Positions 12,166-35,476 of a stretch of 64,000 nucleotides of DNA are shown here, one piece after another. Numbering within the stretch: position 1 is the first letter of the stretch; each line of letters starts with the position of its first letter. The stretch spans positions 386,875-450,874 of the forward strand of contig NZ_AP018929.1 in assembly GCF_008326425.1 (NCBI RefSeq). The letters run 5' to 3'. The notes below the pieces were generated by a model. That model was not told the DNA's origin, made no database searches, and saw only the letters and a list, made by a program, of their open reading frames with translations. The position numbers and the translations under genes are program-made. This DNA comes from Sulfuracidifex tepidarius (GTDB taxonomy: Archaea; Thermoproteota; Thermoprotei_A; Sulfolobales; Sulfolobaceae).

Positions 12166-12270
12166 ATGAAGATCCTCTTTGGAAACCAAAAAACCCTATG
12201 TGATTTTATACACCTGTTTAACCTCTTATATCAGGCTAATTCTTTTTACCATGAGAACATTAGCTTTCAT

Positions 12271-12684
12271 GTGTCTTCATTTCAAAATGCAGTGCTTCTT
12301 TGCAAAAGGTCTTTAAATTACCTGAAAGCTTCAAAGGAATCGTTCAAGGAGGGTTTGTATGACGTTTCCTCCACAAACTGTCAGATCTCCGCCGAGCTTC
12401 TCATAAAATCAACGTACCTTCTGTTAGGATACTCCTTTCCCCAAACTCATAACATAAGGAAATTGCTTTCAGGATTGGCTGAATTAACTCTTTCTGAGAA
12501 AATTAAAGACTTCGTGAAGAATAAAAGAAAGGATTTAAACATGGTGGAGCTAAACAGATTTGAAGGACAGTACTCGCTAATAGACATAGATTCAGAGACA
12601 GCGTCTGACTGTCTAGATACGGTGGAAAATCACCTCCTTCCTTTAATGAAGAGCGTTTGGGGTGATAAATGGTGTGGGGATTAG
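12271..12684 (+). CDS. HEPN-domain protein (toxin of a HEPN/MNT pair)
   Basis: HEPN proteins are helical RNases or RNase-like toxins neutralised by a partner nucleotidyltransferase. The domain begins LLCKRSLNYLKASKESFKEG, continues with CQISAELLIKSTYLLLGYSFPQTHNIRKLL and ends WGDKWCGD. I prefer the GTG at 12271 because the paralogue at 34.8 kb starts at the equivalent residue; an ATG at 12166 would add 35 residues that look non-HEPN. The stop overlaps the MNT gene by 16 bp, so translation is coupled. It is paralogous to the frameshifted HEPN gene at 34756. Confidence 0.8.
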   Translation: MSSFQNAVLLCKRSLNYLKASKESFKEGLYDVSSTNCQISAELLIKSTYLLLGYSFPQTHNIRKLLSGLAELTLSEKIKDFVKNKRKDLNMVELNRFEGQYSLIDIDSETASDCLDTVENHLLPLMKSVWGDKWCGD

Positions 12685-13001
12685 AATATATTCAATATCT
12701 AGAAAATAATTGGCGCAAAATAGCCGAGAGAGTCAAAGAAGTGGCCAAGACCTTAGGTAAAGTCGATAAGGTTGTAGTGTTTGGTTCTGTCATTAAAGGA
12801 GAAGTGACAGGAAGTAGCGACCTAGATATAGCAGTATTTTATGACGAGGATCTTACTGACAAAGAGAAAATAAGGAGGACTCTAGAAATACTAAACAGAG
12901 TAGACGAGGAGATCGCCGACATAAACCTACAAGTGATGAACAGAGATGAGGAGGACTTCTTCCTGAATAAATTCGTGGACAAGTACGTGGAAATCGATTA
13001 A
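12669..13001 (+). CDS. MNT-type minimal nucleotidyltransferase (antitoxin)
   Basis: This 110-residue protein has the polymerase-beta-type signature VVFGSVIKGEVTGSSDLDIAVF, with GS and DxD metal-binding residues. In characterised HEPN/MNT systems the MNT protein neutralises the HEPN toxin, in some cases by AMPylating a Tyr in it. It follows the HEPN gene with a 16-bp overlap. Its closest relative in the window is the MNT gene at 35144 (both begin MV-G-E---YLE-NW-KIA). Confidence 0.88.
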   Translation: MVWGLEYIQYLENNWRKIAERVKEVAKTLGKVDKVVVFGSVIKGEVTGSSDLDIAVFYDEDLTDKEKIRRTLEILNRVDEEIADINLQVMNRDEEDFFLNKFVDKYVEID

Positions 13002-18524: not shown

Positions 18525-18803
18525 TTACAGGACTTCTAATTTTCTTTCGCTGATTTTGACGCAACCATCCTTGGTACAGTTAATAGAGGAGTACTCCCAG
18601 TCCTGTATGACGACAATGTAGACGTTATCATTGTCTTCAATAATTCTTTCAGCTCTTTCGGACACGAGGGACGCCGTCTTGTAGCTGCCAACTCCAGCAT
18701 AGACTGACTTGTTAACCATTGAGAGACCCATAGACCTGAGGTATCTCCTGAGTTTCCCCCTGATTTTCTCTGAGGAGATGTCAAAGGCCACCTCTATGTA
18801 CAT
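18525..18803 (-). CDS. cas2: CRISPR adaptation endonuclease Cas2
   Basis: This 92-residue ferredoxin-fold protein has YIEVAFDISSEKIRGKLRRY at the start, where Asp8 is the usual metal-binding residue, then LRSMGLSMVNKSVYAGVGS, matching the Cas2 core. The C-terminal tail has two Cys (CTKDGC), which is less usual. Cas2 joins Cas1 to integrate new spacers. Neither cas1 nor cas4 is in the window, so this copy is an orphan here, 0.56 kb from the end of the type III operon in the same orientation. Confidence 0.85.
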   Translation of the reverse strand: MYIEVAFDISSEKIRGKLRRYLRSMGLSMVNKSVYAGVGSYKTASLVSERAERIIEDNDNVYIVVIQDWEYSSINCTKDGCVKISERKLEVL

Positions 18804-19363: not shown

Positions 19364-20209
19364 TCACGATTTAGACCACAGGAATTTCGTCAGCCCGTCC
19401 CACTTCACGTCCACCCCGTCAACCTCTCCTACCTTGCTCTCCTCTACGTCGAGGGTGAGGTGCCCCAGTCCCCTGCTCTTGGATCCTCCCACGGCTATCC
19501 CCATCTTCTCCACGTACCTCAAGGTATATTTCCACAGTTGAACGTCACCTTCAGGCCTCAGCACTACCTTTAGGCTGATGATAGAAGGCTCGACCACTTC
19601 TTCCTCGAAGAGGTGTTTCTCCTTTTGGGCGCCGAAAGTCCTGTCCAGCACCACGTGTGGCTGGAAGGAGACGTTCCCCTCGACAAGGGAGTCAGAGAAG
19701 GATATGGAGGACGCGAAGAGCTTGGAGCCGTAAAGCCTCTCCACCGGACACATATAATAGTAAACTGCTCTGGCTGTGAGTTCCTCTAGGTCTCCCCACG
19801 TGATCTCGGCTGCGGGAACGTTAGACCTCACGATAGTCCATACCTCGTCGTCTATGTCCACCCCCTTCAGTTGGGTCCCATTTACCTCGTTTCTCTCATT
19901 GTCGATCGTCTCCCTAACTCGTTCTAAGATACGTGTAACCCTCTCGTCAGCCTCTTTGTTTCCTCTCAATTCCTTAGGATGATCGTCGTTGTCATGCGAT
20001 AACGCAGTTCCCATCCCTTTACCCTTAGATATTTCCTCACTTATCCTCTTGAACACTCCCTTCCAAGAGGAGTTCGGGATCACCGGTACTTCCCTTGCCT
20101 TCACCTTGTACTTCAACTGGTACAAGGTAGACCCTTCCCTTTCTCCTCCCACCCTGAGGGAGTCCCCTTTGAAGCTCAGTTTGAAAAGACGTATCACTTT
20201 CTCGCTCAT
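19364..20209 (-). CDS. Cas7-family RAMP subunit of type III-D effector (operon-distal copy)
   Basis: 281 residues. The RAMP fold shows as an RVGGE turn near residue 20, the VPVIPNSSWKGVFKR helix cap (family PGSSLKG), and the C-terminal glycine-rich loop GGSKSRGLGHL. Cas7 subunits form the backbone along the crRNA. The loop before VPVIP that carries the RNA-cleaving Asp in Csm3 reads STLYQLKYKVKAREVPVIP, with no Asp, so this subunit probably does not cut. It has a long insertion rich in charged residues. The start overlaps the Cas5-like gene by 4 bp. By position it corresponds to the last subunit of the S. solfataricus Csm operon. Confidence 0.83.
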   Translation of the reverse strand: MSEKVIRLFKLSFKGDSLRVGGEREGSTLYQLKYKVKAREVPVIPNSSWKGVFKRISEEISKGKGMGTALSHDNDDHPKELRGNKEADERVTRILERVRETIDNERNEVNGTQLKGVDIDDEVWTIVRSNVPAAEITWGDLEELTARAVYYYMCPVERLYGSKLFASSISFSDSLVEGNVSFQPHVVLDRTFGAQKEKHLFEEEVVEPSIISLKVVLRPEGDVQLWKYTLRYVEKMGIAVGGSKSRGLGHLTLDVEESKVGEVDGVDVKWDGLTKFLWSKS

Positions 20210-21120
20210 AACCTCACCTTAGATAAGAGCTCTCCCAACGAACTGAGGGAGAAGGCGAAGTTCAAACCAGCAGTCTTAAGGGGGTAAAGGTCTCCCTTCA
20301 CCTTAACCAGAGACCCCTGCGTGGCTACCTTGAGGAATGGTTTCGTCCCCCTCAAGTCGTCTGAGGTGAACCATCCAGTGTAGTTCGTGACCTTCCCTAT
20401 CCCTGTCTCTACCTCCGTGTAACACGGGGACAAGCAGTAAGCCCACCCGTCCCTCGCGTCCTTCAGCTCTACCTCTCCCTTCTTTTTCAACACCGCTTCG
20501 CCGAAACCCCTGTTCCTAGACCTGCCTATATTGAGCCTGACCTCGTCCTTGGGAAAGTCGTTCGAGAGCGCCCAGAACGTGGTCGGCATCTTATACTCGT
20601 AGTGGTATAGCATTCCAGCCTCCTTGTTCATAGTGACCTTGTTGATTGCTACGTGGCCTTGTATGATGGAAGGTACCTTGACTTCGTTGTAGAAGAACAA
20701 CCCGTTCCCTGAATTCCCGCGGAGGGCTACAACGGTACCGGTCTTAGACTTCAACGATTCTACTCCCACACTCTCCTTCATCTCTTCCCTTTTCCTGTCG
20801 ACCACTTCCTCATCACCGTTCATGAGCAGGGAGTCTTTCCTCTCCACGAACTCCTCCGACTTCCTCCCCATGGCGAAGACGAACGGATGAGCCGGGGCCG
20901 AGTTGACGGGATACCCAGGAGATACGTAGACGTCCGCGAGTTCGTGAACGTCATATCCTTCCTTGATGAGGGCGTCTATTATGGCACCTCTCAGGGTCTG
21001 TGACGGGATGAAGTCCTCAGTGGAGAGGAAGTAACTCTTCACGTTCCTGGCGTGTATGAGGGCTGGTGTGACCACCTTCACCTCAAGTAGCGTGTACTTC
21101 ATGTCGATCACCACACCCAC
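20206..21120 (-). CDS. Cas5-like RAMP (Csx10/Csm4-type) of type III-D effector
   Basis: 304 residues. It opens as a RAMP (YTLLEVKVVTPALIHARNVK), has DFIPSQTLRGAIIDALI as the PGSSLKG equivalent, and carries IGRSRNRGFGEAVL, the glycine-rich loop. Two RAMP-like halves, a position right after a Cas7 gene, and a length near 300 fit the Cas5-like Csx10/Csm4 subunit that caps the crRNA 5' tag and touches Cas10. The first ATG-equivalent at 21120 overlaps the upstream gene by 13 bp; the Met at residue 7 (MKYTLLEV) may be the true start. The C-terminus ends with hydrophobic FAFSLSSLGELL. Confidence 0.78.
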   Translation of the reverse strand: MGVVIDMKYTLLEVKVVTPALIHARNVKSYFLSTEDFIPSQTLRGAIIDALIKEGYDVHELADVYVSPGYPVNSAPAHPFVFAMGRKSEEFVERKDSLLMNGDEEVVDRKREEMKESVGVESLKSKTGTVVALRGNSGNGLFFYNEVKVPSIIQGHVAINKVTMNKEAGMLYHYEYKMPTTFWALSNDFPKDEVRLNIGRSRNRGFGEAVLKKKGEVELKDARDGWAYCLSPCYTEVETGIGKVTNYTGWFTSDDLRGTKPFLKVATQGSLVKVKGDLYPLKTAGLNFAFSLSSLGELLSKVRL

Positions 21121-21704
21121 TTCAGGTCTAAGGGGACCCTCCCAGTTTCCACCTCCTTCCCGTTCCTGACCACCTTGTCCACATTGACGTCTATCATTCC
21201 TCCCCTGCCTAACCTCAGAAAACGTAAGTAGTGAAGCGACGCCAAGGCTAGGCAGAGGTCCTCCTCTTCGCCTATAACCTGAACGGTGAAGGGGAACTCC
21301 TCCTCCGGCGGGACCACCTCCTGTTTGAAGAGCGCCCTTTCCTTGGCCGTTCCCTTTTCATCGTCTATGCTAACGTGAGTCACCACGTGTGTCGGGGGTT
21401 TCGTCATCCCGTCCTTGTTAGGGCCAGAAGATACCCTGAGCTTTCCCTCATGGTCGGGGTACCCGAAGAGGGAGCACACGTCGCAGGGTTTACCCCCGTG
21501 GGCTTTAGCTATCCTGGAAGGCTCTATCTCGTCGCATGAGGTCCCCCTCACCATACCGTTCCTGATTGCCCAAGAGATCGCAGTCCTCATTGCCCCTTTC
21601 AGGGTGGAAGGGACGAGACCTAGCTGGTTGAACTGGACGTCTATGAAGAACCCGTCAGTCCCTATAGTGAACGAACTGACGGTCTTGATTTTACCTTTGA
21701 TCAT
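21108..21704 (-). CDS. Cas7-family RAMP (Csm3-like) after the cas10 gap
   Basis: 198 residues. IKTVSSFTIGTDGFFIDVQF is followed by LVPSTLKGAMRTAISWAI, the RAMP helix cap, and the end has LRLGRGGMIDVNV as the glycine-rich turn. CDEIEPSRI and CDVCSLFGYP give a possible zinc-binding Cys set, known in some Csm3-like proteins. FIDVQF places an Asp close to where the target-RNA-cleaving Asp of Csm3 sits, so it may be catalytic; this is inferred from spacing. It begins a second block of the operon, 719 bp after cas10. Confidence 0.82.
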   Translation of the reverse strand: MIKGKIKTVSSFTIGTDGFFIDVQFNQLGLVPSTLKGAMRTAISWAIRNGMVRGTSCDEIEPSRIAKAHGGKPCDVCSLFGYPDHEGKLRVSSGPNKDGMTKPPTHVVTHVSIDDEKGTAKERALFKQEVVPPEEEFPFTVQVIGEEEDLCLALASLHYLRFLRLGRGGMIDVNVDKVVRNGKEVETGRVPLDLKWVW

Positions 21705-22423
21705 GAAGACGGATTTACCCGTGTTTTTAATTCCTTCACATAACGTGTTTAATCACCTTTTGAGAGATCGAGAGAGAGAAATGAGGAAAAAACAGAGAGA
21801 AAGGAAAAAAACGAAGAAAAGAGAGAGACACGACACGACACGACACGACAAAAGAAAAAAACTTGAAGGAGTCGGGAAGGGGAGCTTCCGCCTCATCAGC
21901 CTTGACGTGCCGCGTGTATCTTGCTCGGCGTGTGGTTGGTGACCCGCCTCATTAGCCCTGACGTGTGGGGAAACCTCTCCCCCTAGGGTCCGCTCATTCC
22001 TGTCCTCACTAATACAGTGAACGGCATCTGCCTTCACCTCTGGTCCGCCCACTCTAAGCTCGTTTACTTTCTCCCTTCTTTTCCCGTCTCCCTCAGTTTT
22101 GGCCAACTCGTTCGCGTGAGGTTTGAGGTACTCCCCCTTGAGGCGAGACACCTCCGCACCAGGGATCGACGAGAAGTCAGCCGCAGGTAAGGTTCCTCCA
22201 CCTGAGTGTTTTCCGCTCTTCATTTCGTCGAGGTTTGAGGTAGCGTATCGCAGAGGAAGACGTACCGAGAGGCGTGGCTCTTTCCATCTCACTACCAATT
22301 GTGTCCAACGTCCATCCCCACAGCCGCTCCCTTCGGAACTGTGCGTGATCCCATTCGTGTTGTCGAGACAGGGGTTAACGTGGAGTACCTCGTTCAACAC
22401 TATCCACCTCATGTTACTCAATT
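21705..22423. other. 0.72 kb segment interrupting the type III operon
   Basis: All other genes in the operon touch or overlap, but here 719 bp intervene. One minus-strand frame stays open for 224 codons from a TTG at 22427 (overlapping the cas10 stop as TTGA) to 21753, starting MKLSNMRWIVLNEVL and continuing NGITHSSEGSGCGDGRWTQ. The last 50 codons only translate a purine tract. It resembles nothing in the effector; its tail-like composition and repeats recall the 3' regions of some IS200/IS605 tnpB elements, but I cannot confirm that. A near-repeat of 22 bp (21888-21909 and 21944-21965, 20 of 22 identical) and a 23-bp ACACG tandem (21828-21850) lie within it. Confidence 0.45.
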
Positions 22424-25111
22424 TCAAGGACTTTCACCCTTATCTCCTGCCTCAGCTAACGCTGTCTTCAACATGAAGAACACGTCAGCTAGAGGTACAC
22501 TCGCCACCTTGTCATTTCCGCTAGACTCCTTCGGCTCGCCTTTTTCACCCGACTTTCCTTCTTCGCTAGACTTCTTTCCCTCCTCGCTCCATTGGTTCAG
22601 CAAGGTCAACATTAGCTTTGACGCTTCCTTGTGTCTGGTGGCCTGCCTCATCATGTAAATTACGGTATAGTAAATGTCCTTGTTCCTTTGGAAGGCCTCC
22701 ACTACGTCCTCCATAACCCTCACGTGACTCTTGAACGAGTCAACCCTCTCTTCGTGTTCTTTTCCCTGACCGGCACTCCTCAACAATGCCCAGAATCCCT
22801 CAGACGAATCCATGACCTTTCTCCAGAAAGAGAAGTTAGTCTTCATCTTGTAAAGCGACCCGACTTCAGAACTCTGCGACGTAGCCGTCCACTCCCTCTT
22901 AACTTCCTCCACTGAAGACTTAGTCACCAGGGAGGAGGCGAAGAGGAGAGTGAGCGTGTTCCTTCCTTTCTCATTCACAGCACCTGCCTCGTCTTTGGTC
23001 TCCCTCCTTATCTTACCGTCTTCCATTAACTTCTCTGCAGCCTCAATGGCGAACTGGATAGGCGTATCGTATTTCAGGGTCACTACCCCTACCTTGAAAG
23101 ACATCCCCAGCTTGTCTGAAGCCTTGCTCAACGCGTTCATGGTAATTACCGGTGCGGTCATCGCTGGGCCGATGAGGAGGATGTCGTCCCCTCCCATGTA
23201 TTGCACTCCCAAGAGGGTCCTCATTACCATACCCTTGTTCAGTGTACCGTCCCGTTCAGCTTCGTCAGTTGCCTCAACGAAGCTCTTCTTGACCCAATAG
23301 TCCACCTTGAAACTCTTGTCGATGTATTCGCCGAAGAACAGGGAGTTGCTGAAGTACTCTCCCGCGTCGTTTCCGTCACTCTTCACAACTGACAGGTAGC
23401 GTCTGGGGGCTTTCACGGGCTCGTACAGCTTGTTCTTCTCGTCTATTATGTCTCCTGATAAGTAAGGCATGGGTTCCTCCACTTTCATGGGATACATTAC
23501 TGTTGACCCTACCTTGAAGTAGGTTTCCAGCTTCGAGCTGAACCCCTTACTCTTGGATAGCTCGTGGACCGTGTAACATCTGGTACATAGGCGCTTCCCC
23601 CTATCGTCGCTTCTCACTGCGGGGTAGACACCGCAACTCTCGCAGACAGCGTGAAGTCCGGGGGAGATCATCTTTAGTGAGGAGGGAGGTATCATCAATC
23701 CCTTCACTCCGTCCTTCCCGAAGAGCTCGCTGACCGTCTCATATCCCCTCATTCTGTACGTCCCATTTCCCACGATGAGCGGGGTAGAGGAGACCGTGAG
23801 GCTCACGTCCAGGTCGCGCAACAGCTTCACGTCCCTCAGCTCTTCCTCTATCCTCTCCATCACTCTAGACGTGTCCCTCCTCGTCACGATGAAGGAGTGA
23901 CCTCCGCTACTTATGAGGAGTGAATCTAAGGGTAGATATGTCTTTTCGTACATGCTATCTATTACCACGAAAGGTATTGTAGTCACGCTCATGTCCACCA
24001 GCATGCTCGCTGTGGAGATGTCCCTCAAGTCCGAGAACGACTTTATGAATGATTGAACGCCGGGGAAGTTGAACATGTTCAGGTCTGCCACGACGTTCTC
24101 AGACGGAGTGTCTCCTCTTCTCTTCTTTCCCTTGCGTTTCTCCTGCATTTTCTTGTACACTTGCCTGGAGCACTCCTCGTATTTTTCCTTCAGCGAGCCC
24201 CTCTTCTCTATTTCGTTGATGTAGTCCTCAGCTTCCTCTGCAGTCATGTGGAGTGTCTCGAGGAAAGGAGAACAGGACTGGATGGAAGAGTAGAGCTGTT
24301 CCAGCTCGCCCCTCTCCACTCTCCCCTCACCTGAAGAGATCAGGTCGCCCTCTATGTTCACTAAGTGGTGATTACGAGCCCTCTCCCTAGCCTTGCGTAG
24401 GACGTCTACAATCCCTGACCTCAACCTCTGATTCAAGTCACCGATTCTCTGGATGCCGTCGATCAGTCCGTCGAAGAACGCTGTTGAGGACTCCCAATGT
24501 CTCCCGAAATCCGTTAGCTTCCCTATGTCGTGTAGCACTGACGCTAACCTCAAGAAATGAAGGTCTTCCGAGTCGCGGAAGATCGCCCACTCCGCCATCG
24601 AGGTGAGCGAGAGGTGGGACGCGAGTGAGCCCACGTTGTTCCCGGGCCTGCTGTCAGCGGGTACCATCATGAGGGCTTCGTAAATTGAATAGATCTCGTC
24701 TTGGTATAGGGAGATGAACTGCAAGAAGGGATTCTTCCTTCCCCAACTTCCTTTCACCACGTCGGTTACTTTGTCAGGACTGACTTTCCCCTTCACGTGT
24801 CTCTGCAACACATAGTTCGCTAACGTTTCGAAGTTGTTGGCGTTCTCCGGCGCGCTTCCTTTCGTTACATCTCTCGTCCCCGCGTAACGTAAAGGAGGAA
24901 GGAGCATAGGGGCTTTCAGGACGAGCGAGATCAAGTCCGACAATGCGAGGGCTACCTTCTTCTCGTCCACGTCAAAGTCAGCAAACATGATGCTAACTCC
25001 TTCAGAGAGCACTTTCTTGAAACCGTCGAAGGCTCTCTTCGCCTTTTCCTCGTCTACTTCCTCCAATCTCCCCGTGCTGGGGTTGTAAACTCCCCTAATC
25101 ACGTTTATCAC
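22424..25111 (-). CDS. cas10: Cas10, large subunit with HD and GGDD domains
   Basis: This 895-residue protein is the signature of type III CRISPR. It carries an HD nuclease motif SVLHDIGKL (His194, Asp195) for single-stranded DNA cleavage, a first palm without catalytic residues (SSGGHSF, near 402), a zinc finger (Cys490, 493, 509, 512), and the palm motif YMGGDDILL (GGDD at 640-643) for cyclic oligoadenylate synthesis. Both activities look intact. The C-terminus (about 811-840, IYMMRQATRHKEASKLML) resembles the separate small subunit encoded at 27546. A charged insert follows the HD domain (about 265-340). The GTG start overlaps the small ORF by 17 bp. The stop borders the intruding segment. 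Confidence 0.93.
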   Translation of the reverse strand: MINVIRGVYNPSTGRLEEVDEEKAKRAFDGFKKVLSEGVSIMFADFDVDEKKVALALSDLISLVLKAPMLLPPLRYAGTRDVTKGSAPENANNFETLANYVLQRHVKGKVSPDKVTDVVKGSWGRKNPFLQFISLYQDEIYSIYEALMMVPADSRPGNNVGSLASHLSLTSMAEWAIFRDSEDLHFLRLASVLHDIGKLTDFGRHWESSTAFFDGLIDGIQRIGDLNQRLRSGIVDVLRKARERARNHHLVNIEGDLISSGEGRVERGELEQLYSSIQSCSPFLETLHMTAEEAEDYINEIEKRGSLKEKYEECSRQVYKKMQEKRKGKKRRGDTPSENVVADLNMFNFPGVQSFIKSFSDLRDISTASMLVDMSVTTIPFVVIDSMYEKTYLPLDSLLISSGGHSFIVTRRDTSRVMERIEEELRDVKLLRDLDVSLTVSSTPLIVGNGTYRMRGYETVSELFGKDGVKGLMIPPSSLKMISPGLHAVCESCGVYPAVRSDDRGKRLCTRCYTVHELSKSKGFSSKLETYFKVGSTVMYPMKVEEPMPYLSGDIIDEKNKLYEPVKAPRRYLSVVKSDGNDAGEYFSNSLFFGEYIDKSFKVDYWVKKSFVEATDEAERDGTLNKGMVMRTLLGVQYMGGDDILLIGPAMTAPVITMNALSKASDKLGMSFKVGVVTLKYDTPIQFAIEAAEKLMEDGKIRRETKDEAGAVNEKGRNTLTLLFASSLVTKSSVEEVKREWTATSQSSEVGSLYKMKTNFSFWRKVMDSSEGFWALLRSAGQGKEHEERVDSFKSHVRVMEDVVEAFQRNKDIYYTVIYMMRQATRHKEASKLMLTLLNQWSEEGKKSSEEGKSGEKGEPKESSGNDKVASVPLADVFFMLKTALAEAGDKGESP

Positions 25112-25274
25112 CTAACAAGGATTTCGACAGGGTGTGGATGATGAACTCTGATTGCTCGTCTTTCCACACCATCCTTTCACCCTGAAGTTCCACTTCGACT
25201 ATCTTGAAGCAGTTCCCCTCTTTCAAGGTAACGCTCAAGTCTTTCTTTATGCACAACTTCAAGGTATACCTCAC
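25095..25274 (-). CDS. 59-residue protein encoded between Cas7 and cas10
   Basis: A GTG at 25274 overlaps the stop of the Cas7 gene as GTGA and the frame ends at a TAG at 25095-25097, 17 bp inside cas10. Residues include RYTLKLCIKKDLSVTLKEGN, CFKIVEVELQGERMVWKDEQ and SEFIIHTLSKSLLGDK. The beta-rich start and helical end would fit a small ferredoxin-like or single-sheet protein. The double overlap means it is translationally coupled in a tightly packed operon, which is good evidence that it is real. I recognise no family. It may be an accessory subunit of the effector or a regulator of Cas10. Confidence 0.65.
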   Translation of the reverse strand: MRYTLKLCIKKDLSVTLKEGNCFKIVEVELQGERMVWKDEQSEFIIHTLSKSLLGDKRD

Positions 25275-26050
25275 CTTTTCTCCGTCACTTCTCCTATCGC
25301 TCTCACGTGTCCCTTGTGGGCATCCAGGAACGCCTTCAGGTACTTCCCGGAGTCCACATCGGGGATGCTGAACTTAACCCTCCCCCATGAGGGATCGGAG
25401 AACTTGAACCTCCCCATGAGGACTACGCCGTTTCCCCTCCCTATCCCTAAAGCGAAGAGTATTGCCCCGAGGTCAGCGTCGTCGTAGTTCCTGATCGTGA
25501 ACGAACCCACGAACTTGGAGCCCTTCTCAACCGTCTCGTAGGTAGACCTCATCTCGGTGACCAGGTTGACCCTTCCGCTCTCAAATGTCAGGTCGGTGAA
25601 CGAAACCCTGCTAGCTAACCCCATGTTACCCATCAAGTCGCAAACGAAGCACATTTCACGGTCTCCCAGAAACTTCTCGAAGGGTTTCCTCTGTGGCTTA
25701 AACAATGACTGATAGACTCTCGACACGGTCCTCGAAGGCCTCACCGCTAGGGATGAGTAGCACGCACAGTCCACCAAGAGCTCCAGCCTGGACCTCACGA
25801 GTCCCTTCACAGTACCCCCGGGGATGACCAAGCCCTGAGAGGTCTGCATGAACTTCGCGAACTCTCTGGAAGCGTGGATCCCCTCAGGCAGGGAACCCGT
25901 CCTCAGGAACGCCTCAACGTCACTGTCGCTGATCGCGGCCTCTTGTTCAAACCTGCTCCTCCCCGACGAAACGTGGAGATGGTCGCTCACCACAGTCATC
26001 TCCAGTTGGTACTTCCTAGTGTTTCCACCGTTCCTGTCCTTAACCTTCAC
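25271..26050 (-). CDS. Cas7-family RAMP (third backbone gene)
   Basis: 259 residues. LEMTVVSDHLHVSSGRSRFE gives the first RAMP strand and turn; GLVIPGGTVKGLVRSRLELL is the PGSSLKG helix cap, and LGIGRGNGVVLMGRF the glycine-rich loop. Cys at 124-126 region (DCACYS) and MCFVCDLMG could bind zinc. Between the first turn and GLVIPGG there is a longer insert than in Csm3 (SDSDVEAFLRTG), so the position of a catalytic Asp is unclear, although several are present. It follows the preceding Cas7 gene with 1 bp between them and overlaps the 59-codon ORF by 4 bp. Confidence 0.8.
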   Translation of the reverse strand: MKVKDRNGGNTRKYQLEMTVVSDHLHVSSGRSRFEQEAAISDSDVEAFLRTGSLPEGIHASREFAKFMQTSQGLVIPGGTVKGLVRSRLELLVDCACYSSLAVRPSRTVSRVYQSLFKPQRKPFEKFLGDREMCFVCDLMGNMGLASRVSFTDLTFESGRVNLVTEMRSTYETVEKGSKFVGSFTIRNYDDADLGAILFALGIGRGNGVVLMGRFKFSDPSWGRVKFSIPDVDSGKYLKAFLDAHKGHVRAIGEVTEKR

Positions 26051-26051
26051 C

Positions 26052-26894
26052 TTATGGTTTAACGTATTTTAACACCTCGAGGAACTTGTCGTCACTCAAC
26101 GGGTCTATGGGGAATTTAGCCTCGACTTTCTCGTCCTTAGGGTCCATTTCAGGAAGCTTGTATGGGACGTATTCCTTCATGTCGAGCTTCAAGTCTCTGA
26201 ACTTCATGACTCCGAAACCACGGCTCTTGTTCCCTCCTACCTGGGTCAACCCTTGGTCTATCTCCCTGATTATCGATATAATGTACCCAATCACGTAGTT
26301 CGTGGGGTTCATCATGTTTATCCTGAACGTGAAGACAGACCCAGGCTCCACGTAGTCCATTGTGACCAACGCTCGTTCTGATACGCTTCCGGTCTCCCTG
26401 TTTATCGCTATCATAGGTCTCGTGCCTATCTCGTAAGACGTAGGGGTCTTGGGATAGGAGTCGAAGAAGGAAACCGACGCTCTCACGTGGGGAGCACCGA
26501 AGACCTTGCAGTTAATACACGTGCCCTCCCAAACTAGCCTCACCGCATCGTCGTAATTCCCCCTCTTGAGCAATGACTCTAGTTCGTCCTCTATCTTGTC
26601 CACGCAAGTCTGTTTGGTGAGCCCCGTACAAACGCTCACGCCCCTACCCCTCATTAACCTCTCCCCGGTGGAGCGGAAGACTCCCTTCCATGAGGATCCG
26701 GGGATCACGGGGACCCTGTCCTCACCCATCCTCACCCTCAGCAGGGCTTGGTTTGCCGTCGACAACAAGTCCAAGTTATCCCTTCCTACGCCTATCCTCA
26801 GCGGAGTTTCGTTCACCACTTCCCCGCTTATCACGGCTTCCCTCACTAGGACGTCCTTCCTTATCAGGATGTGACTTAACGAGTTCTGAGACAC
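26052..26894 (-). CDS. Cas7-family RAMP (second backbone gene)
   Basis: 280 residues. VVNETPLRIGVGRDNLDLLS leads to VPVIPGSSWKGVFRSTGERL, the typical RAMP helix cap, and GGNKSRGFGVMKFRD is the glycine-rich loop. CTGLTKQTC and CINCKVFGAP give a probable zinc site. In the loop before VPVIP the residues are TANQALLRVRMGED, where Csm3 has an Asp followed by NP; an Asn takes the place, so RNA cleavage by this subunit is doubtful. It sits 4 bp after the first Cas7 gene. It would pack along the crRNA guide. Confidence 0.84.
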   Translation of the reverse strand: MSQNSLSHILIRKDVLVREAVISGEVVNETPLRIGVGRDNLDLLSTANQALLRVRMGEDRVPVIPGSSWKGVFRSTGERLMRGRGVSVCTGLTKQTCVDKIEDELESLLKRGNYDDAVRLVWEGTCINCKVFGAPHVRASVSFFDSYPKTPTSYEIGTRPMIAINRETGSVSERALVTMDYVEPGSVFTFRINMMNPTNYVIGYIISIIREIDQGLTQVGGNKSRGFGVMKFRDLKLDMKEYVPYKLPEMDPKDEKVEAKFPIDPLSDDKFLEVLKYVKP

Positions 26895-26898
26895 GGCT

Positions 26899-27549
26899 TC
26901 ACACCTCCACGTCTGAGAGCCCGAACTGGGTACACTTGACCTCGGTCAACCTCATCAACCCCAGCCCTGTGCTCTTCCTCCCGCCTATCTGAAATCCCGA
27001 CTTCATGGTTTCGATCACCTGAGATATGACTTCTCCCCTCTCGTCGTTACCCTTGCACTCCTCGTTCAGCTTGACGCCCCAGAGAAGAGCGGTGAACTTG
27101 AACTTGTTACCCTTGTCCACCAAGTCGAGAGAATACAAGTTCGATGGGTACTGTCCGTTGAAGACCCTATCTATTGATACCATAGTCCTGGTGTGGACCG
27201 TAGGGGTCTCCAAGGGCATCGCGTCCATCACTTCCACAGCTGAGGCGTTGGACTTAGACCCGAAGAGCTGAGAGACTATATCGTTTGGTTTCCCTTTCTT
27301 TTCGTCCTTCTCGTCCTCTTCATAAGGGTATACCACCTCACCTCCCTTGGTCTTGACAATACTCTCAACTAACCCCCTCATGAAACCCTTCAACGTAGAA
27401 CCCGGTATGAAGGGTACTCCCTTCCTTGTCATCATGGCCGAGTCCGTAGTTTGTTGGAAAGCGTTCTTCGACACGCTCGTCTTCCCTCCTCCTATCCTGA
27501 AAGGAGTGTCGTTGACCAGAACTCCTTGTACCTTAGTTCCCTCTATCAC
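26899..27549 (-). CDS. Csm3-like Cas7 RAMP, probable RNA-cleaving subunit
   Basis: 216 residues, the most canonical Cas7 here. DTPFRIGGGKTSVSK, then TTDSAMMTRKGVPFIPGSTL with Asp36 in the position of the catalytic Asp of Csm3, then KGFMRGLVESI, then VHTRTMVSIDRVFNG, and a C-terminal IGGRKSTGLGLMRL glycine-rich loop. Such subunits cut target RNA at 6-nt intervals. It overlaps the small-subunit gene by 4 bp. The C-terminus ends with a single Cys. The catalytic assignment rests on alignment by eye. Confidence 0.87.
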   Translation of the reverse strand: MIEGTKVQGVLVNDTPFRIGGGKTSVSKNAFQQTTDSAMMTRKGVPFIPGSTLKGFMRGLVESIVKTKGGEVVYPYEEDEKDEKKGKPNDIVSQLFGSKSNASAVEVMDAMPLETPTVHTRTMVSIDRVFNGQYPSNLYSLDLVDKGNKFKFTALLWGVKLNEECKGNDERGEVISQVIETMKSGFQIGGRKSTGLGLMRLTEVKCTQFGLSDVEV

Positions 27550-27953
27550 GGATGTCCCCTACCGTAATTGGTGTGGTGTTCGTAAGCCCCTCTTCCCTGT
27601 CCCTTACCTGACTCGGTGTTGGTGGAAGTCACGAACGAGTTCACCATGGAGCTGAAGTTGTCGAAATTGGACTGTGTTTCGTTGAGGGCCTCGAAAGACC
27701 ACTTGAACAAGCCGAGGAATTCCCTAGCCTTCATTATGTCCTTGTCTTTCAAGTACTTGACTAAGATCTTCGCGGTCTCGACGAAGTGGTTCCTGGAAGC
27801 CTGCCTCATTATGAAGATGAGGAGATCGTTTACGTTATCGGTAGATTGAGAGAACTCGAGCATGTTGTTGACCTGCGTGGGGTTCAATCTCTCCCTTTTA
27901 GCTTGCGAAACAGCTTTAGCTATAATATCGTATAAAGATACGGACTGAGACAT
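27546..27953 (-). CDS. Type III small subunit (Cas11/Csm2-like)
   Basis: This 135-residue mainly helical protein starts MSQSVSLYDIIAKAVSQAKR. Residues 40-70 (NVNDLLIFIMRQASRNH, ETAKILVKYLKD) match the C-terminal helical domain of Cas10, as expected for Cas11 proteins, which stack along the minor filament and contact the crRNA-target duplex. The last 25 residues are Gly-, Asn- and His-rich and probably disordered. It is the first gene of the operon and lies just after a clear TATA promoter. The position equals that of the 17-kDa first subunit in S. solfataricus. Confidence 0.78.
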   Translation of the reverse strand: MSQSVSLYDIIAKAVSQAKRERLNPTQVNNMLEFSQSTDNVNDLLIFIMRQASRNHFVETAKILVKYLKDKDIMKAREFLGLFKWSFEALNETQSNFDNFSSMVNSFVTSTNTESGKGQGRGAYEHHTNYGRGHP

Positions 27954-27996
27954 TTCGATCTGCCCATTTGGACAATTAATATAGAGCTAGAGCACA

Positions 27997-28019
27997 TTTA
28001 AATATATTACGTAACGTAA
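27997..28019 (-). promoter_or_regulatory. Promoter of the type III operon with palindromic operator
   Basis: On the minus strand a 13-bp palindrome TTACGTTACGTAA (28007-28019) runs directly into a TATA box TATATTTAAAT, and the cas11 start lies about 45 bp downstream. The palindrome occupies the BRE position, so a bound regulator would compete with TFB. A Csa3-like or similar cas regulator is possible; none is encoded in the window. Confidence 0.6.
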
Positions 28020-28262
28020 AAATTAGGCTAAACATTAGGTTTTTTGGTCTGTTCTTCACAACTGAAGAAAGCCGATTGGCTAATGTCCTGATATGGATGA
28101 AAGCCCCTCATTTTACTTGAAGAGATCTGGGAAAGTTGGAGAGGGATGGATATACGCTATGTGTATGTGTATACATTCACGTATACATATATCCTCTCAT
28201 GTACCGCGTTTATAAAGGAATAAATACCACTTTGTGACTTATAAAAGCCGGTAAGTCTTTCC

Positions 28263-28394
28263 CTTTAGTTTTCTACAAAGAGAAGGTTCATGATAAGTTG
28301 ATCAACTGAACATTTAGCTTTAGTTTTCCGCGACGAGAAGGTGGTGATTACCCCCTCAGGTAGCCCCTCGTTTTAGTTCTCCACAATAGGGGAC
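28263..28394 (-). repeat. Three spaced imperfect repeats, possible relic CRISPR array
   Basis: Copies start at 28263, 28318 and 28371 (periods 55 and 53). The first two, 25 bp each, match at 21 positions: both begin CTTTAGTTTTC and end GAGAAGGT. The third keeps TTTAGTT and CACAA and matches at about 15 of 24. Read on the minus strand the copies end in GAAAACTAAAG, like the 3' end (crRNA tag) of some Sulfolobales repeats. Length and period fit an old array with roughly 29-30 nt spacers; operator repeats are the alternative. Confidence 0.4.
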
Positions 28395-28780
28395 ATATCC
28401 ACATTTCAAAGCGTGAAGATATCCTTGTGACCGTTTTACGAGTTCATATTGAGTTTCCGTATCCCTCTTTTCTTGAGGAAGGAAGGACATTCCCGTTCAG
28501 ACTATATCTTGATTAAGTTCCCATTAAGGGATTTATAATATATTTCAGTTATAACTATTAAATATTTATTTTTTAAAAAAACTCTCATACAGGGAACATG
28601 TCTAGAAATAAAACCGAACAGACTAAATGTTGTCTATCAGTTCATAGACGACGGATCACACTACAATACAACTATGCAAGTACAAAAATCTTTTGTGATT
28701 AAAATCTTTTATGTCGGGCGAAACTCAGTGTACAGAGTTTAACTTTGCATCACCTGAAAGTATAAGGAAAAGCTTTTAAA

Positions 28781-28803
28781 CTATAAAGAGAAGCTCTTTA
28801 TAG
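28781..28803. promoter_or_regulatory. Perfect 10-bp hairpin with 3-nt loop
   Basis: CTATAAAGAG (28781-28790), loop AAG, CTCTTTATAG (28794-28803). It contains a TATA-like core on both strands and lies about 150 bp upstream of the nuclease-cas6 unit. It could be an operator-promoter or a terminator-like structure. Confidence 0.5.
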
Positions 28804-28949
28804 TCTTGAAATGAAATCGAACAGCCTAAGGTTAAAATACTTCATTCTATCCAAGATTTTTTTAAAAGTGAGTGTAAGTAGCGTGTCAGTGGAGACTCCA
28901 AGGGGCTGGAGGAGACAAGTGATTATCTCCGTTTCTAAGGGGTGTCCCG

Positions 28950-29678
28950 ATGAAGATCAGTAACCTTCTTGAGGTTTACGAAGTGGACTTCATCACCAAC
29001 CTTAAGCTTGAGATACCGTGGCGCAATTCCTCGCTGACCTCTTGCAGCACGGGCAACCTCACTTTCGTGAATAGGACTTACACGGTTAAAGAGCTCGTGA
29101 ACTTGATTTTAAACGTCCACGAGACCCCTCACGAAACTTACTCGGTGGAACACGCGGCTATCCCGCTGATAGAAGAGATCTTAGGTAGAGGTAGAAGGCA
29201 CGAGAGACTTCAAGTCACCCTTCCCTTACACGGGCAGGAAACGACGGTGGCGGGTAAACCAGACCTCATAATTGAAAAGGGTGACTTCAATGTAGTGGTT
29301 GAACACAAGGGAATTCATCTCGAGATGAGCGAGAGAGAGTTTCAGACGAAATCTCGGTACAGGTGGTGGTGGGAGAGCGTAATCCCCTCAAGGAGTTTTG
29401 AGCGTCATGCACTTCAGTCCCTGATATATGGGTCCATGGAGTCCTGCTTAAGGAAAGTCCCCACAGTCCCCGTCATAGCTTACACCCCCTACAAGATGGT
29501 CGACTCTAAGGCGGAAATCTACGCCGTGGTCGTTGTGTACCCTAGCACGTCATTTTCTCCTAGCTCTTACCTGCTCTATAGTATGCCGAGCCCATTCGGG
29601 AACGTGAGGATGGAATGGCTTTCACCTGAAGGATACCTTGTGAGTATACTTGAGGAGGTAAGGGGAAGGGCAGGATGA
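28950..29678 (+). CDS. PD-(D/E)XK nuclease coupled to cas6
   Basis: 242 residues. The nuclease core is GKPDLIIEKGDFNVVVEHKG: Asp105, Glu118 and Lys120, with Glu67 in YSVEHAA as a likely first acidic residue. A later helix FERHALQSLIYGS fits the Cas4/RecB-like fold. The four iron-sulfur Cys of Cas4 are absent (only two Cys in total), and no CARF or other sensor domain is seen. It overlaps cas6 by ATGA and shares the divergent control region with the type III operon, so it probably works with that system, perhaps in DNA degradation or crRNA/array processing. The role is unknown. GGGGTG precedes the ATG. Confidence 0.75.
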   Translation: MKISNLLEVYEVDFITNLKLEIPWRNSSLTSCSTGNLTFVNRTYTVKELVNLILNVHETPHETYSVEHAAIPLIEEILGRGRRHERLQVTLPLHGQETTVAGKPDLIIEKGDFNVVVEHKGIHLEMSEREFQTKSRYRWWWESVIPSRSFERHALQSLIYGSMESCLRKVPTVPVIAYTPYKMVDSKAEIYAVVVVYPSTSFSPSSYLLYSMPSPFGNVRMEWLSPEGYLVSILEEVRGRAG

Positions 29679-30406
29679 AGGTAATCTGTAGGGTCAAGGT
29701 AGTCCCATCTACGGACGCCGTCATTCCTCCCTTCTCCGCAAAGGTTGGAAAGACGTTGTTGGGAGGGACTAAATCCAACGTGTCGATATCTCCGTTGTGG
29801 GACGGGAAGAGGTACCTATTCAAGTCTGGCGATGCCCCTATCCCTATGACAGTTTACGCTGGAGACGAGTACTGGTTCAGGATCGGAGGGGACGAGAGGG
29901 AAGTAGCTACGGCGATTGCGGGGCTGAGAGACACTAAGGCGTTCAACACCTTGTGGCACGTTGAGGACGTGGAGGTGAAAAGGGTGGGCGACCTTCCTTC
30001 AGACACCAGGAGGATAACCGTGGAGACATTGACCCCAGCCATACTTCCCGACCCTTTCAGCCCGAAGAAGAGGAAGAGGTTCTCCAATGAGTTCGTAACG
30101 GTTTTTGCCGTTAACTTCATGGACGAGTTGAGGTTCACAAGGGAGGACGTAAAAGAGAAGTTGGCCACCATAGAGGAAGTGGTGACGGAAGAGCCTTCGT
30201 GGATGAAGTGGGTCACCGTGATCTACGCCGGAAAGAGGGTGGTTGGTGTCGTGGGGAAGTTCACCTACTCCTCTGAGAGGTTCGGCGAGATGATGCCAGT
30301 AATAGGGAATGCCGTAGTTAAAGGGATAGGGAGTTCAAGGAGAAACGGATTCGGGATAGTGAAAGTTACTTTAGATAACGGAAACCAGAGGATACCGTAT
30401 TTTTAG
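29675..30406 (+). CDS. cas6: Cas6 crRNA-processing endoribonuclease
   Basis: 243 residues. It has a RAMP-type first strand (MKVICRVKVVPSTDAVIPPF), a central RITVETLTPAILPDPF strand-turn, and the C-terminal glycine-rich loop VVKGIGSSRRNGFGIVKV that marks Cas6. Cas6 cuts pre-crRNA inside repeats and leaves an 8-nt 5' tag. The usual general-base His is not obvious, which is also true of several Sulfolobales Cas6 proteins. It overlaps the nuclease gene by 4 bp, and the mini-array candidate lies 160 bp downstream. Confidence 0.82.
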   Translation: MKVICRVKVVPSTDAVIPPFSAKVGKTLLGGTKSNVSISPLWDGKRYLFKSGDAPIPMTVYAGDEYWFRIGGDEREVATAIAGLRDTKAFNTLWHVEDVEVKRVGDLPSDTRRITVETLTPAILPDPFSPKKRKRFSNEFVTVFAVNFMDELRFTREDVKEKLATIEEVVTEEPSWMKWVTVIYAGKRVVGVVGKFTYSSERFGEMMPVIGNAVVKGIGSSRRNGFGIVKVTLDNGNQRIPYF

Positions 30407-30567: not shown

Positions 30568-30650
30568 CACAATGTCTTCTCAAACTAACACGCCCTGCGT
30601 TTTACAGCCTTTTCTATGCCTCCTCACACAATGTCTTCTCAAACTAACAC
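30568..30650 (+). CRISPR. Candidate mini CRISPR array: two 24-bp repeats, one 35-bp spacer
   Basis: Repeats at 30568-30591 and 30627-30650 are identical over 24 bp (begin CACAATGTCTTC, end CAAACTAACAC) and differ immediately outside. The spacer, 30592-30626, is 35 bp. These lengths are those of Sulfolobales arrays. The 3' end AAACTAACAC resembles known Sulfolobales repeats ending AAACTAAAAC. It lies just downstream of cas6. With only two copies, a chance duplication cannot be excluded. Confidence 0.55.
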
Positions 30651-34755: not shown

Positions 34756-35168
34756 GTGCATGAGCTTCATAAATCCCTTTGTAGAAGGGCTCTGGAATAC
34801 CTTAAAGCGTCTGAGAATGCGTTAGACGGTGGTCTCTACAACGCCTCAAGCCTAATGTCTCAAATAGCCGCTGAACTGGCAATAAAAGCTACCATCTCAT
34901 TCCTAGGCTATTCCTTTCCTGAGACCCACGAGATAAGGAAACTCCTGTCAGTTCTATCCACGCTCTCGTTGAAAGAGGAAATAACTAACTTCGCTAAAGA
35001 GAAGAGAGGAGAATTAATTCTTTTAGAAGATGCATGGCAAAGGGGACAATATTTCTCTTACGGGCTAAAAAAGAGGATGCTGAAATCTGTTTAAATGTGA
35101 CTAAGGAAATAATTAACTTGGTAAGGAAGATTTGGGGTGAGAAGTGGTGTTCGGAACAGAAAGAATGA
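34756..35168 (+). pseudogene. HEPN-domain toxin with frameshift at an A6 run
   Basis: The first 112 codons (SLCRRALEYLKASENALDGG, LMSQIAAELAIKATI, GYSFPETHEIRKLL) match the HEPN protein at 12271. At CTAAAAAAGAGG near 35070 the frame shifts; one more A would continue it as KEDAEICLNVTKEIINLVRK and IWGEKWCSEQKE, ending at 35168 and overlapping the MNT gene exactly as in the first pair. The product as read stops 25 residues early. It may be a loss, a sequencing indel, or slippage at the A run. Confidence 0.75.
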
Positions 35169-35476
35169 AATATTTGGAGGAAAATTGGAGTAAAATCGCC
35201 TCTTTAGTGCTGAATGAAGCTAGAAAGTTCGCAGATGTAAAAGAGGTAATAGTTTACGGTTCTGTGGTAAAGGGTGACACTATGGGTAGTAGCGACTTAG
35301 ACATAGCTCTGATAGTCAGAAATCTTGACTTGACACACCTTAGAGATCTTTTATTGAAAGTCTATTTCTCTCTGCCCGATGAAGTATCCCAGATCTTGGA
35401 TTTAAACATCATTGAAGAGAGAGATGAGAATGAGCTATTGAGATTTGCTGGTAAATACGTAATAGTTAAGAGTTAG
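35144..35476 (+). CDS. MNT-type nucleotidyltransferase, third pair
   Basis: This 110-residue protein has the signature VIVYGSVVKGDTMGSSDLDIAL with GS and DxD motifs. It is the partner of the frameshifted HEPN gene (25-bp overlap with its restored end). It begins MVFGTERMKYLEENWSKIA, parallel to the MNT gene at 12669, so the two pairs are paralogous. The antitoxin is intact while the toxin gene carries the frameshift. Confidence 0.86.
   Translation: MVFGTERMKYLEENWSKIASLVLNEARKFADVKEVIVYGSVVKGDTMGSSDLDIALIVRNLDLTHLRDLLLKVYFSLPDEVSQILDLNIIEERDENELLRFAGKYVIVKS

Follow-up and report, generated by a model that had tools for sequence, protein, structure and literature searches.

The type III-D system of Sulfolobus is a biochemical model system for CRISPR defence. 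In S. solfataricus, Csm loci typically have cas6 in front, and the 3' end of the Csm crRNA is shortened by a nuclease of unknown identity (PMC3807668). Cas6-3 (sso1422) of this species, which is encoded near csm, is functionally linked to Csm (PMC4041471). Type III effectors that contain PD-(D/E)XK nucleases include Can1 and Can2/Card1, both of which are CARF-fused. Other close described enzymes are Cas4 (PF01930; SSO0001, PDB 4ic1; Pcal_0546, PDB 4r5q), which carries four Fe-S cysteines (PMC5704561), and the RecB-family nucleases AddA/AddB and RecE.

A 64,000-nucleotide stretch of the Sulfuracidifex tepidarius genome (the window) encodes a candidate nuclease that resembles each of these and matches none. 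Like Cas4, it has a predicted PD-(D/E)XK core with an identical set of catalytic residues (E, D, E-x-K and Q) and a matching fold, but its family lacks the Fe-S cysteines, has no cas1/cas2 neighbours, and is coupled to a type III-D cas6. The RecB-family nucleases have the fold and catalytic signature in common with it, whereas the window protein stands alone, without a helicase, and is linked to a CRISPR system. As with Can1 and Can2/Card1, a PD-(D/E)XK nuclease is encoded with a type III system, but the family has no CARF domain, a different architecture, and a length of only ~200–240 aa.

The nuclease-cas6 pair and its type III-D operon

The nuclease gene (P0001) lies at 28950–29678 on the forward strand and encodes 242 aa. 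It is followed by cas6 (29675–30406, forward strand; 243 aa), with the ATGA at 29675–29678 common to both frames. The coupling of the pair proposed in an earlier note from this overlap is upheld, with the overlapping layout found again in a second species. PADLOC and Pfam profiles both identify cas6, which matches PDLC01127 at an E-value of 6e-89 and Cas6_N above its cut-off. It also matches TIGR01877 at 2.8e-12, yet under the curated cut-off. Two more Cas6 genes are present elsewhere in the genome, and the position of the window cas6 suggests that its product may be the orthologue of Cas6-3. A profile scan of P0001 against Pfam, NCBIfam and PADLOC gave zero matches.

A complete type III-D operon occupies 19364–27953 on the reverse strand, divergent from the pair and separated from it by ~1 kb of intergenic sequence (27954–28949). 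Reading away from the pair, it consists of csm2, the III-D small subunit (27546–27953; PDLC01503, 4.8e-25), two cas7 paralogues of the Csx7 type (26899–27549 and 26052–26894), a further cas7 paralogue (25271–26050), and cas10 with HD and GGDD motifs (22424–25111). These are followed by another cas7 paralogue (21108–21704), the Csx10-related cas5 of III-D (20206–21120; PDLC01544, 1.5e-76), and a last cas7 paralogue (19364–20209). The cas7 genes and cas10 were assigned by profile matches, with the cas10 motifs read directly. The divergent type III-D operon described from the DNA alone is thus present, with the III-D Csm2 and Cas5, several Cas7/Csx7 proteins, and Cas10.

Further features surround this locus. 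Behind the operon lies a solo cas2-like gene (18525–18803, reverse strand; E 2e-4) with no cas1 nearby. A HEPN-like and nucleotidyltransferase-like gene pair of the toxin-antitoxin type occurs in two diverged copies (12166–13001 and 34756–35476, forward strand), which are ~22.5 kb apart and flank the III-D locus on both sides. Just 3' of cas6 are two identical 24-nt repeats (30568–30591 and 30627–30650, forward strand) separated by 35 nt. The repeat occurs nowhere else in the genome, is absent from two other genomes of the genus, and is unlike either of the repeat families of the CRISPR adaptation loci in this genome; an Rfam search of the region returned nothing credible. A CRISPR mini-array serving the window cas6 (30568–30650) was considered and, on these grounds, given no evidential weight. 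The repeats may serve the window Cas6 as a repeat-like RNA element, for which ncRNA60 of S. solfataricus provides a comparison (PMC4041471), or may be something else.

Recurrence of the pair beside cas6

Searching 197 genomes of the order with P0001 recovers a single relative, in a congener (G066), at 64% identity. This genome carries the same overlapping layout, with 79% identity between the Cas6 proteins. No credible relative was found with P0001 in public genome contigs, phages or plasmids, and a phage or plasmid origin of the nuclease was discarded on the basis of the phage and plasmid scans. From this search alone the nuclease would be read as an orphan gene, a reading overturned by the neighbourhoods of cas6 in other genomes. 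A comparison of the two species gives the nuclease a dN/dS of 0.17 and those cas genes with measurable dS values of 0.04–0.08; the gene is under purifying selection and is evolving faster than its neighbours. A hidden Markov model built from ten proteins of other genera, collected as described below, ranks the window ORF first among 227 frames (E 4e-4; the next at 0.77). The recurrence of the overlapping pair in G066, the dN/dS value and this ranking by a model free of the genus identify the nuclease as more than a chance ORF.

The wider family was collected by reading upstream of cas6 genes of the same lineage in further genomes of the archaeal family. At these loci, an ORF of 171–231 aa ends just before cas6, or before an ORF of 86–102 aa that abuts cas6. 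Intact cas6 of this lineage is found in 13 genomes (G000, G066, G090, G078, G151, G136, G050, G159, G102, G131, G141, G146, G119), and in 12 of them the nuclease ORF is motif-complete. The exception, G102, has kept cas6 and the III-D system while its nuclease is a 93-aa remnant frame without the motifs. III-D genes flank cas6 at all 13 loci, divergent and adjoining in seven, co-directional and adjoining in four, and several kb off in G151 and G102. When the layout changes the nuclease stays with cas6 and not with the csm operon. Eight loci of other Cas6 lineages in the same genomes gave no match to the nuclease profile. The pairing, which the earlier note wanted counted in other genomes, is therefore conserved across several genera, near III-D systems.

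Decaying loci follow the same pattern. In G011, cas6 is broken and the nuclease is open only in its C-terminal part, while G096 and G042 retain only fragments of cas6 with no nuclease-family match beside them. This suggests that the nuclease and cas6 tend to decay together. A partial homologue is present in G183, whose genome is incomplete and contains gaps.

A scan with the profile of the 12-protein alignment (A2) covered 197 genomes from the order and 398 from the phylum, and its strong matches were confined to this archaeal family. The weaker matches that were read were solo Cas4 proteins with Fe-S cysteines and two orphan copies in G090. The latter lie away from cas6, at L076 (1495–2082) and on the reverse strand of L080, with E-values of 1.9e-19 and 1.2e-11. 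Median identity is 19% among the 12 nucleases and 48% for Cas6. The pairwise distances of the two proteins are correlated (r 0.82; Mantel p 0.0005, the lowest value that the test can give), although common ancestry of the locus would by itself produce the same result.

These data bear on whether the nuclease sits beside cas6 and III-D by chance, as a neighbour unrelated to them in function. The single relative found by plain sequence search and the orphan copies in G090 are what such a neighbour might show, but its presence at 12 of 13 intact cas6 genes, in loci of several genera and differing layouts, makes this explanation extremely improbable; the correlated distances point the same way, with the reservation on common descent given above.

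Other small genes accompany the pair. A second small ORF of 86–120 aa, in overlapping frames, is found in several genomes and is absent from the window. It lies between the nuclease and cas6 at L031, L032, L035, L036, L037 and L038, and after cas6 at L034 (2211–2573); two members scanned against PADLOC had no profile match. In G090 and G078, cas6 is followed by a zinc-finger-like protein of ~105 aa (L029, 2188–2508; L030, reverse strand).

Catalytic signature, fold and the HTH label

Only five columns are invariant among the 12 proteins of A2, corresponding to Glu67 (29148–29150), Asp105 (29262–29264), Glu118 (29301–29303), Lys120 (29307–29309) and Gln156 (29415–29417), with codons on the forward strand. 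As judged from sequence, these residues are the RecB/Cas4-type PD-(D/E)XK signature. The D/E-x-K triad of Asp105, Glu118 and Lys120, which had been noticed in the window protein alone, is present and conserved, and Glu67 and Gln156 complete the set. A cas partner can hence diverge too far for BLAST to detect while keeping its position and five residues unchanged.

Profile comparisons place the family with Cas4. The ten-protein profile matches a Cas4 profile at an E-value of 1.7e-9 (probability 96%), and the two-sequence profile of the genus matches the ten relatives at 1.5e-4 (probability 51%), which is the weaker link of the chain. One member of the family matches PDDEXK_1 at 9e-6, and three match the Cas4 profile of PADLOC, the best at 3e-5. 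A sequence search of the PDB with A2 found Cas4 SSO0001 (1.7e-4); the same search with the two-sequence profile found nothing.

Structure prediction likewise depended on the alignment used. AlphaFold2 with 12 sequences gave a model with a pLDDT of 67.5 and a pTM of 0.72, in which the core reaches a pLDDT of ~85–93. With two sequences the values were 30 and 0.26 and the structure was not usable. The modelled PD-(D/E)XK core spans residues 41–200, and residues 1–40 are of low confidence. Foldseek searches with the model returned a DinG entry, Cas4 (SSO0001, 3.9e-6), and then RecE and AddA, the last three with a probability of 1.00 and TM-scores of only 0.3–0.5. Viral Cas4-like nucleases were also returned, with modest TM-scores.

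The Cas4 comparators have four invariant cysteines, whereas no cysteine is shared by the 12 nucleases. P0001 has no CARF match in Pfam, NCBIfam or PADLOC, and the core filling residues 41–200 leaves no room for such a domain. Both absences, of the Fe-S cysteines and of a CARF sensor, had been read correctly from the window protein. The gene product is therefore predicted to be a RecB/Cas4-type PD-(D/E)XK nuclease that lacks the Fe-S module found in Cas4, on the strength of its catalytic set and fold class. The proposal of a new ancillary nuclease holds in that the protein is Cas4-type, free of Fe-S and linked to cas6, but it is not of an unfamiliar kind, being recognisable as Cas4/RecB-type by profiles and fold. 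In a tree with Cas4, dominated by long branches, the family does not separate from Cas4 as a clade of its own; its shared position makes one origin plausible.

Six relatives at the same position (L036, 706–1236, and five others) match PADLOC C3a146, a type III accessory labelled 'DNA binding HTH', at E-values down to 3e-78. Part of the family is therefore already catalogued with type III systems. The C3a profile names presumably originate from Shah et al. 2019. P0001 itself does not match the C3a146 profile, PDLC01076, at an E-value of 1. The label raises the prospect that the protein has lost its enzymatic function and regulates the cas6 unit by binding DNA. However, invariance is limited to the catalytic residues, a pattern not expected if activity had been lost, and the model is a PD-(D/E)XK core with no HTH domain seen in it, residues 1–40 being of low confidence. 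A regulator is accordingly very unlikely. As the label conflicts with both the PD-(D/E)XK motifs and the model, it is a probable annotation error, the matching proteins being PD-(D/E)XK proteins. The pairing was thought to lie outside the standard cas modules; this needs qualifying for the six C3a146 relatives, but stands in so far as the function recorded there differs and P0001 is missed. The passages searched in the 2025 classification update (PMC12669027) and in a type III effector survey from 2024 (PMC11229360) mention no cas6-linked nuclease.

Candidate roles in type III-D defence

Given its recurrence in 12 genomes next to the same III-D system, the pair is probably a real part of III-D defence. 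Judged from comparative data, the likeliest role of the nuclease is that of a DNA-degrading helper of III-D interference. This role is favoured because its relatives are DNA exonucleases, it evolves fast and adaptation genes are absent. All of the Cas4-linked matches (Cas4, RecE, AddA) are DNA exonuclease families, and the elevated dN/dS fits an invader-facing role. The fuller proposal is of a dedicated, fast-evolving III-D accessory, made together with its own Cas6, in which an Fe-S-free RecB/Cas4-type nuclease degrades invader DNA during interference; its chances are about even. The protein would be a metal-dependent DNase with no sensor of its own for cyclic oligoadenylate. Contact with Cas6 or the III-D complex may bring it to its substrate; alternatively, it may attack nicked or single-stranded DNA that Cas10 leaves behind.

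Several observations count against a role in interference. The HD motif of Cas10 is intact at every III-D locus read, which leaves no obvious need for another DNase, and replacement of a dead HD domain by the nuclease is ruled out. In addition, G102 has cas6 and III-D with only the nuclease remnant, and the attachment of the nuclease to cas6 and not csm points to work on crRNA. Separately, the G066 cas10 (L025, 7962–10645, reverse strand) is split into an HD-half ORF and a GGDD-half ORF in different frames, reflecting a broken gene or a sequencing error.

The attachment to cas6 keeps crRNA maturation alive as a rival, in which the nuclease would trim the 3' ends of Cas6-made crRNAs, or process repeat-like RNAs, before III-D loading. 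The unknown trimming nuclease of S. solfataricus (PMC3807668) and the link of Cas6-3 to Csm (PMC4041471) are in keeping with this. Conversely, DNA is the substrate of the close structural relatives, and slow evolution would be expected of a maturation enzyme. Trimming of 3' ends has also been reported for Cmr and for the Csm of S. epidermidis (PMC3807668), where this nuclease gene is not known to occur. Such a role in crRNA biogenesis is unlikely. The more specific version, a crRNA-maturation or effector-loading nuclease that acts on RNA with Cas6, makes III-D-specific crRNA 3' ends and is the missing trimmer of Sulfolobus Csm, is quite unlikely.

Adaptation was the third role envisaged in the earlier note, beside interference and crRNA maturation, and is the one weakened by the absence of cas1 or cas4 adjoining the nuclease. 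Its homology to Cas4 would suit a prespacer trimmer that hands spacers taken from III-D targets to Cas1-Cas2 proteins provided from elsewhere. Against this, the Fe-S module of Cas4 is missing, no cas1 or cas4 is present in the fetched flanks of any III-D locus, and two true Cas4 genes lie beside cas1 and CRISPR arrays elsewhere in the window's genome. The only adaptation-type gene at the III-D loci is the cas2-like frame of the window, ~10 kb from the pair. A trimmer of this kind is rather unlikely.

The likeliest role, assistance to III-D interference, and its main rival define the two points on which the nuclease bears, namely DNA degradation besides that by Cas10 and the trimming of crRNA 3' ends. 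Its gene has been kept beside the III-D cas6 of Sulfolobus while going unannotated or being listed as an HTH protein. If active, the nuclease would be an enzyme missing from reconstituted III-D reactions.
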